Shown piece by piece: positions 13,453-45,278 of a stretch of DNA of 64,000 nucleotides. This DNA is from Natrinema saccharevitans (lineage in GTDB: Archaea; Halobacteriota; Halobacteria; Halobacteriales; Natrialbaceae): the NCBI RefSeq assembly GCF_001953745.1, contig NZ_LWLN01000001.1, forward strand, positions 2,356,001 through 2,420,000. Reading direction: 5' to 3'. Positions within the stretch are counted from its first letter, which is position 1. The number at the start of each line of letters is the position of its first letter. The notes under the pieces are model-generated. The model searched no databases, was not told the origin of the DNA, and worked only from the letters and a program-made list of their open reading frames with translations. The translations under genes and the position numbers were made by a program.

Positions 13453-13502
13453 CGCGGTTCGGAGCGAGCGAGAACCGCGATGCGAACGGCGCGAAGCGCC
13501 GT
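13453..13502. repeat. Two adjacent hairpins with a gagcgagcg-type loop
   Basis: CGCGGTTC (13453-13460) pairs with GAACCGCG (13472-13479) across a ggagcgagcga loop; ACGGCGC (13486-13492) pairs with GCGCCGT (13496-13502) across gaa. They lie in the 203-bp gap between two divergent genes. The loop vocabulary resembles that of the hairpin array after tRNA-Met at ~45 kb. Confidence 0.5.
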
Positions 13503-44780: not shown

Positions 44781-44855
44781 AGCGGGATGGGATAGCCAGG
44801 AGATTCCGGCGGGCTCATAACCCGCAGATCGGTAGTTCAAATCTACCTCCCGCTA
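44781..44855 (+). tRNA. Initiator tRNA-Met (CAU)
   Basis: A 75-nt cloverleaf without an intron. The acceptor stem pairs AGCGGGA with TCCCGCT and leaves A73; the anticodon stem is GCGGG/CCCGC around CTCATAA (anticodon CAT); the T arm carries GTTCAAAT. The A1-T72 pair and three consecutive G-C pairs in the anticodon stem are the marks of an archaeal initiator tRNA, not elongator Met or Ile2. No CCA is encoded. A duplicate of its 3' end lies 130 bp downstream. Confidence 0.95.
44832..44855 (+). repeat. tRNA 3'-end copy 1 (24-bp direct repeat)
   Basis: The last 24 nt of tRNA-iMet, from the T arm to the discriminator base, are repeated exactly at 44985-45008. tRNA 3' ends serve as attachment sites for integrases, so the two could be att sites. 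Confidence 0.6.
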
Positions 44856-44926
44856 CTTTTCAGGGATTCAACGACGAACGACGAGCATGGCGAGGAGTGA
44901 GTCCTGAATCCCGGACAATACGACGA

Positions 44927-45161
44927 GTAGATTTGAACAAGAGAAGACGCACGCAGCGAACGAAGTGAGCGAGTACGTCTTCGCGTAGTTCAAATCTACC
45001 TCCCGCTATATTCTGACGCGAGCAAGTCCGCGAGCGTCGAGTATAGCACGGCGGTAGTTTGAACCAGACAGCACTCGAGCAAAGCGAGCGTGCTGGCGTG
45101 GTTGAATTCTCTCCCGTGAAAATGTTGCTGTGAACGAATCCGCGAGCGACGGGAATCACAG
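44927..45161 (+). repeat. Array of four nested hairpins after the tRNA
   Basis: Four stem-loops in a row: HP1 44927-44999 (outer stem GTAGATTTGAAC/GTTCAAATCTAC, inner GAAGACG/CGTCTTC), HP2 45005-45047 (GCTATA/TATAGC, inner GACGC/GCGTC), HP3 45057-45106 (inner CAGCAC/GTGCTG), HP4 45128-45161 (CTGTGA/TCACAG). Each has an outer stem, a 3-5 nt spacer and, except HP4, an inner stem, with loops rich in gagcgaacgaagcgagc words. The arms of HP1 reuse the tRNA T-arm sequence. The array could be a set of haloarchaeal mini-repeats, processing or termination signals, or an unknown RNA. Confidence 0.65.
44985..45008 (+). repeat. tRNA 3'-end copy 2 (24-bp direct repeat)
   Basis: An exact copy of bases 44832-44855. 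Its first part also forms the closing arm of hairpin HP1, and an inverted copy of 12 nt of it is at 44927-44938. The DNA between the two copies (129 bp) codes for nothing recognisable. Confidence 0.6.
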
Positions 45162-45278
45162 GACGAGCGCTCGACATCGAAAGCGTCGGTCCGACCACGG
45201 TTCGAACCGCTCCCGCGATGGCGGCTCGAGGCCGCGGTCGATGTCCCGTCTCCGCTCGAGACAGTCGAGAGGCGGGAT

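Follow-up and report, generated by a model that had tools for sequence, protein, structure and literature searches.

Closely related haloarchaea with and without gene-less cassettes behind their tRNA genes suggest an undescribed kind of mobile DNA

In integrons, the attC recombination site folds into a double-stranded attachment site, and the attP site of the CTX phage likewise folds from single-stranded DNA into a double-stranded site for a tyrosine recombinase. Integron cassettes stand in tandem at one anchor and exchange parts, and their attC hairpin has conserved arms, an internal spacer, an inner stem and a variable loop. The tyrT repeats or RtT RNA of Escherichia coli (RF00391), described from enterobacteria, lie behind a tRNA gene and include a segment of the tRNA's 3' end. 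Elements of the SNJ2 family that target tRNA genes join at the 3' part of the tRNA, leave a copy of its 3' end and keep the tRNA whole, with att sites as short as 13 nt, according to the available part of a review (PMC8371274). Haloquadratum carries PATEs, SMRs and MITEs, short mobile haloarchaeal repeats without open reading frames (ORFs), some with palindromes near their ends (available part of PMC3119063). The structures that we describe here behind haloarchaeal tRNA genes resemble integron cassettes (with a folded site that is putative here), the tyrT repeats, SNJ2-family elements and the Haloquadratum repeats in most of the traits just listed, and differ from each of them in others.

The window, by which we mean the whole 64,000-nucleotide stretch of Natrinema saccharevitans DNA that was analysed, holds a single tRNA call, the initiator tRNA-Met (iMet) gene. 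The best reading of what follows this gene is a tandem row of gene-less small mobile cassettes, one case of a Halobacteria-wide element. Judged from sequence, the order of a unit is hairpin A, t' (an inverted T-arm), a core hairpin, and t (the stretch of the target tRNA that begins near G53 and ends at the discriminator base), and the array can be divided as follows.

44781-44856 (ARAGORN) or 44781-44855 (Rfam RF00005, 58.5 bits), + strand: initiator tRNA-Met gene, the anchor
44834-44855, + strand: source of t, the tRNA 3' end from the T-arm (about position 52) to the discriminator base
44857-44917, + strand: unit 1 hairpin A (A1), type I, inverted repeat of TTTTCAGGGATTCA and TGAATCCCGGACAA, with covariation in 17 iMet flanks
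44927-44938, - strand: unit 1 t', the inverted T-arm copy and left arm of hairpin B, a 12/12 inverted repeat
44927-44999: unit 1 hairpin B (B1)
44939-44984, + strand: core of the unit 1 hairpin B, whose inner stem is GAAGACG/CGTCTTC
44985-45008, + strand: unit 1 t, in which the tRNA 3' end is directly repeated (24/24)
45005-45047, + strand: unit 2 hairpin A (A2), type II, GCTATA..TATAGC, DNA fold z -2.6
45053-45066, - strand: unit 2 t', decayed, GGTAGTTTGAACCA, from sequence and repeat
45053-45119: unit 2 hairpin B (B2), its left arm a decayed T-arm
45067-45098, + strand: unit 2 core, found also before a well-kept t at locus L010
45099-45119, + strand: unit 2 t copy, decayed, local score 9/24
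45128-45161, + strand: probable unit 3 hairpin A (A3), decayed, weak fold alone
45193-45218, + strand: possible third t copy, tentative and strongly decayed, local score 8/24, from the repeat

Set beside the known systems, these units diverge at defining points. Integron cassettes usually carry an ORF, whereas the units here are ORF-less, 39-377 nt long and anchored at a tRNA gene, with arms that differ per tRNA and no linked integron integrase. RtT RNA is not known to have an inverted arm fitted to each tRNA, and a known RNA family was rejected as the identity of the array, since only the tRNA reaches the Rfam gathering score in the window. SNJ2-family elements are kilobases long and carry an integrase in the available text of PMC8371274, whereas the present units are too short to hold one. 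The Haloquadratum repeats, as far as the part of PMC3119063 at hand describes them, are not bound to tRNA genes and have no tRNA 3'-end copy. An ordinary genomic repeat family was set aside as well, blastn of 44855-45165 returning only itself and the tRNA 3' end. The text of the archaeal integron paper PMC9668308 does not contain 'Halobacter', 'haloarch' or 'tRNA'.

The hairpins themselves, which the initial annotation had proposed from the letters of the window, are borne out: as RNA, 44857-45170 folds better than 100/100 shuffles (z -4.0). So is the claim that the first of them builds its stem from T-arm sequence, since GTAGATTTGAAC (44927-44938) is complementary at 12/12 positions to 44988-44999, and just as fully to 44835-44846 within the tRNA. 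The array had been placed too far downstream, however, as a similar hairpin at 44857-44917 lies before its supposed start at 44927, and the single plan ascribed to four hairpins gives way to two alternating kinds, A and B, the second B likewise using a (decayed) T-arm. That description also overlooked the main feature, a direct repeat at 44985-45008 that matches the tRNA 3' end (44832-44855) at 24/24 positions. Folded singly as DNA, only B1 (z -5.4) and A2 (z -2.6) clearly beat shuffles, whereas A1, B2 and A3 do not (z -1.0, -1.3 and -0.6). The t'-core-t of unit 1 folds as DNA on both strands (z -5.4 and -4.4). The stretch 45132-45165 repeats 45020-45053 at 71%. The words said to be shared with hairpins at 13453-13502 carry little weight, because CGNAGYGAG has seven matches in the window against a shuffle mean of 12.9 and such gagcga words are thus unenriched; the 13453-13502 hairpins are not near any tRNA call.

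The proposal that unlike sequences keep one structure fared well when iMet flanks of other species were compared. In 17 aligned type I units, both sides have changed in 14 of 23 predicted pairs, so the paired positions, on whose conservation in other genomes the initial annotation had staked its reading, covary across species. Part of these double changes is due to core swaps, and pairs of the A stem (columns 6-73 and 8-71) covary too. Among the best-matching 30 iMet loci, a biased choice, a t copy scores at least 15 in 22, and the first hairpin A is of type I in 20 and type II in 10. We dropped the assumption that the copy nearest the tRNA is invariably the younger, since the proximal t is the better kept in only five of seven two-copy arrays. 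Separately, extra near-identical copies of tRNA-iMet lie in the first few hundred bases of several contigs (C35 and C20 of G016, C5 of G002, C62 of G011), suggesting repeated elements that carry the tRNA.

The arrangement is by no means peculiar to tRNA-iMet. If a unit is scored wherever a tRNA's own 3'-end copy follows within 400 nt downstream at a local score of at least 15 of 24, then across four haloarchaeal genomes 76 of 180 tRNA hits carry one, compared with 2/180 for the upstream control. The genomes contribute 19/47 (N. saccharevitans, where five of the 47 hits are tRNA-Ala that share one 3' end and nearly the same flanks and lack a unit), 21/46 (Natrinema mahii), 16/43 (G033, a different genus in the family of N. 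saccharevitans) and 20/44 (G057, a different family), with upstream controls of 1, 1, 0 and 0. Three genomes of the four show a bimodal distribution of copy scores; G057 has 12 extra hits at 12-14. The copy starts at the 22nd base from the 3' end in 38/76 units and at the 21st in 17/76, that is, near G52/G53, and base 51 agrees in just 22/72, which places its beginning near G53; t is about 21-24 nt long. Many units open with a T-run, and half of the inserts (38/76) measure 75-102 nt. The same cores recur at different tRNAs and across genera, most clearly in a single core found at three different tRNA 3' ends. We rely on this clearest case alone, because the wider tally, with 12 of 156 cores at more than one 3' end, counts palindromic arms on both strands and also takes in point variants of a single tRNA end.

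In each unit the inverted arm is fitted to the gene that it follows. Over 76 inserts, t' matches its own T-arm with a mean of 10.0, against 7.65 for 36 others (Wilcoxon p ~5e-14), and among 37 distinct T-arms the own one is best or tied-best in 32/76. Allowing up to one mismatch, an inverted T-loop is present in 70/76 inserts and absent from 6/76. Matches at four or more of the five T-stem positions occur in 33/70, compared with 10% for the arms of other tRNAs; the complete five-base match is seen in only 9/70, and t' is thus often imperfect. Where the T-loop is other than TTCAAAT (25 units), the own exact inverted loop occurs in 14 and the consensus loop in one. By these comparisons, t' is shown to track the T-arm of its particular tRNA. 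A second class of cassette copies a shorter part of the tRNA (about positions 61-73, a 13-nt t) and has an inverted arm that matches the acceptor strand; therefore, the t'-core-t formula recurs with another tRNA part. These cassettes carry a TTCACTTCGTTCAGTCA-like lead and were seen at L292, where the tRNA-Ala(414118) element of N. saccharevitans has its distal att, and in G057 at L150, L142, L168, L159 and L277.

Inverted and direct copies of a tRNA might also be made in place. Quasi-palindromes are known to be perfected by template switches, and a T-arm hairpin that caused such a switch at the replication fork would yield t' and t together and explain why t' matches its own tRNA. Fold-back errors of this kind do not, however, account for identical cores at different tRNAs and in different genera, nor for the confinement of t'-core-t to one order. 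An archaeon outside the order showed no unit among the 30 examined of its 54 tRNA hits. We therefore consider fold-back replication errors rather unlikely. In that archaeon three downstream copies do occur, and they are not units because each coincides with the next tRNA gene.

The distribution of the units supports the same confinement on a larger scale. A search for the exact pattern GGGATTTGAANCAG-(10-40)-GTGGTTCAAATCCC across 84,980 species of bacteria and archaea returned 78 stretches with 81 matches, and the record titles of these stretches name haloarchaea, with the exception of one 'Euryarchaeota archaeon'. A tRNA call of one of ten isotypes lies at most 420 nt upstream in 69 of the 81 matches, seven are cut by the end of the stretch and five have no call; the dispersed, tRNA-independent copies that typify PATE and REP sequences are thus not what is seen. 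A looser t'-core-t pattern is present in 41 of the 53 Halobacteriales genomes and in none of the 241 genomes from elsewhere in the phylum, with the reversed-pattern control at 0/294. The exact 18-nt word of the observation followed up here has no match in the N. saccharevitans genome, nor has its reversed control. A viral origin was rejected: matches to phage records include no halovirus, just weak tRNA-like ones. In viral contigs, two unit patterns returned 0 stretches.

Mobility is most directly indicated by comparison of close relatives. Among 42 orthologous tRNA pairs of N. saccharevitans and N. mahii, 15 have a unit in both species, 10 in one and 17 in neither. In five of the 10 one-sided pairs the flanks match right at the joint, giving a clean filled and a clean empty site; the other five are not clean. 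A 102-nt unit follows tRNA-Leu(GAG) in N. saccharevitans alone among 29 Natrinema genomes. In the other 28 the native flank comes next to the tRNA, in G016 with a small rearrangement and in G014 and G007 with a further copy some 220 nt on. At tRNA-Leu(CAG), a 126-nt unit occurs in N. mahii alone, 28 of the 29 genomes being without it. With one genome filled and 28 without at each gene, both units are best read as gains, and just these two cases are polarised. The tRNA is intact at filled and at empty tRNA-Leu sites. The native flank of tRNA-Leu(GAG), TCGCA..GATGCAGGTGATNTCCCTYCGNGGACATCACCCACGCATAAT, is strongly conserved through the genus (L328-L356) and may itself be a regulatory or RNA element.

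Units also change by parts. An additional tRNA-proximal unit was found at iMet and tRNA-Val, a core swap at tRNA-Arg and tRNA-Val, and a hairpin A swap at tRNA-Leu with its break at t'; in general, cores and A-hairpins exchange with joints at t' or t. At iMet loci the same arms enclose different cores in different species, and the core of L026 is inverted relative to L006. We are thus highly confident, from comparison of sequences, that the units are mobile DNA acquired with exact joints at the 3' end of the tRNA, and the occurrence of closely related species with and without a cassette suggests a kind of mobile DNA not previously described. The terms 'mini-repeats' and 'hairpin-making mechanism' in the initial annotation pointed in the right direction, but what lies behind many tRNAs, with differing stems, is better described as modular units gained at tRNA 3' ends.

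One alternative is a native structured trailer, in which the hairpins would act in the tRNA transcript (in termination, 3' processing or shielding from t') and selection would keep the match of t' to t. The T-run that opens many units, the covarying A-hairpin stems at iMet, the t-t' match preserved over many species and the presence of units in most of the order would all fit a trailer. Yet it is hard to reconcile with orthologous tRNAs that lack a unit in both species (17/42) or in one (10/42), with near-alike flanks that occur with and without a unit and with wholesale replacement of the core inside the same arms, and a trailer would have no need to copy the acceptor strand as far as the discriminator base. 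Readings as a transcript signal or structured non-coding RNA likewise leave the tRNA 3'-end copy, the filled and empty sites and the core swaps unexplained. Overall, we regard the trailer as unlikely.

How, then, might mobile cassettes be fitted to the 3' part of a tRNA gene? We propose that a site-specific recombinase, most likely a tyrosine recombinase, would join the cassette with the T-arm/acceptor end, such that the incoming cassette would supply a new tRNA 3' end and the old 3' end would become t. In a single-stranded substrate, t' would pair with t to form a double-stranded attachment site, leaving the core as a variable loop. We infer the folded strand from its likeness to integron attC and from the need to explain t', and a site of this kind would account for the requirement of every unit for an inverted arm fitted to the tRNA that it follows. 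CTX-phage attP offers a parallel to the proposed mechanism, although there a viral genome is joined at dif and not a cassette at a tRNA. We give about even chances to the whole mechanism, that is, insertion of ORF-less cassettes at the T-arm by site-specific recombination with a folded t'-core-t site. More tentatively, and with rather more doubt than belief, we entertain a tRNA-anchored, integron-like system whose folded single-strand sites are re-fitted per tRNA and whose gene-less cassettes have spread to nearly half of the tRNA genes. A similar picture would arise if existing units passed between relatives by homologous recombination, or were lost when copies of t recombined.

A partial second copy of tRNA-Leu lies about 110-230 nt after tRNA-Leu(GAG) in G014 (L357) and likewise in G007 (L355), and in it a 58-nt hairpin, which is a core without t', splits the copy between ..GGTCCGCCG and GTTCGAATCC, before G53 (the GTTC of the T-loop). 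Its position exactly before GTTC would suit non-autonomous single-strand transposons of the IS200/IS605-REP type, inserted there without target duplication; such elements have hairpins and lack ORFs, and PATEs are abundant in Haloquadratum (PMC3119063, available part). However, that part of the paper does not describe PATEs as tRNA-bound, and the IS200/IS605-REP mechanism supplies neither a tRNA 3' end nor an inverted arm matched to the target, which leaves transposons of this type quite improbable as the source of the units.

The proposed recombinase invites comparison with the known integrases of these genomes. There are 13 tyrosine-recombinase hits in the N. saccharevitans genome, and none is linked to units; the nearest of them lies about 159 kb from the iMet array, so that no candidate for an IntI integrase stands beside it. 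Nor was any circular or single-stranded form of a unit seen. Three near-identical 209-aa tyrosine recombinases share an upstream leader in differing surroundings (G000:C1 at 1132215, 2780792 and 446895). They were rejected as drivers: nothing ties them to the units because the flanks examined hold no unit.

Integrase-bearing elements sit behind tRNA-Ala (414118), tRNA-Ile and tRNA-Phe, and the units could in principle be remnants of such tRNA-targeting proviruses or plasmids, with SNJ2-type tyrosine integrases, whose inside has been lost. The shared target, with these very elements behind Ala, Ile and Phe, speaks for this account, but the end repeats of the true elements are 14-15 nt long, as opposed to a unit t of about 21-24 nt, and no inverted T-arm lies beside the repeats of the three elements. 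Moreover, the Ile and Phe elements sit between the tRNA and a flank resembling hairpin A, which lies beyond the distal repeat; the flank therefore probably preceded the elements and was then displaced, and is probably older than they are. The narrow range of unit lengths and the constant order are also unlike the outcome of random deletions. Proviral or plasmid remnants strike us as distinctly improbable.

No published account of such units was found in the open-licence full-text literature, and we file them as a new kind, each of the known classes tested being at odds with the units in one or more of its defining traits. Discovery of the enzyme may yet bring the units close to integrons or to tRNA integrases. 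For annotation, the units would account for the hairpins, tRNA fragments and indels that are encountered behind haloarchaeal tRNAs. If the integron-like system entertained above is real, each haloarchaeal tRNA 3' end would be a separate landing platform. A class of mobile DNA of this kind would also make the old question of why tRNA genes are hot spots of integration testable in simple laboratory archaea. Gene-less mobile DNA that extends across an order, sits in the 3' part of essential tRNA genes and carries an arm tailored to its target would, if true, represent a new way of aiming insertion.
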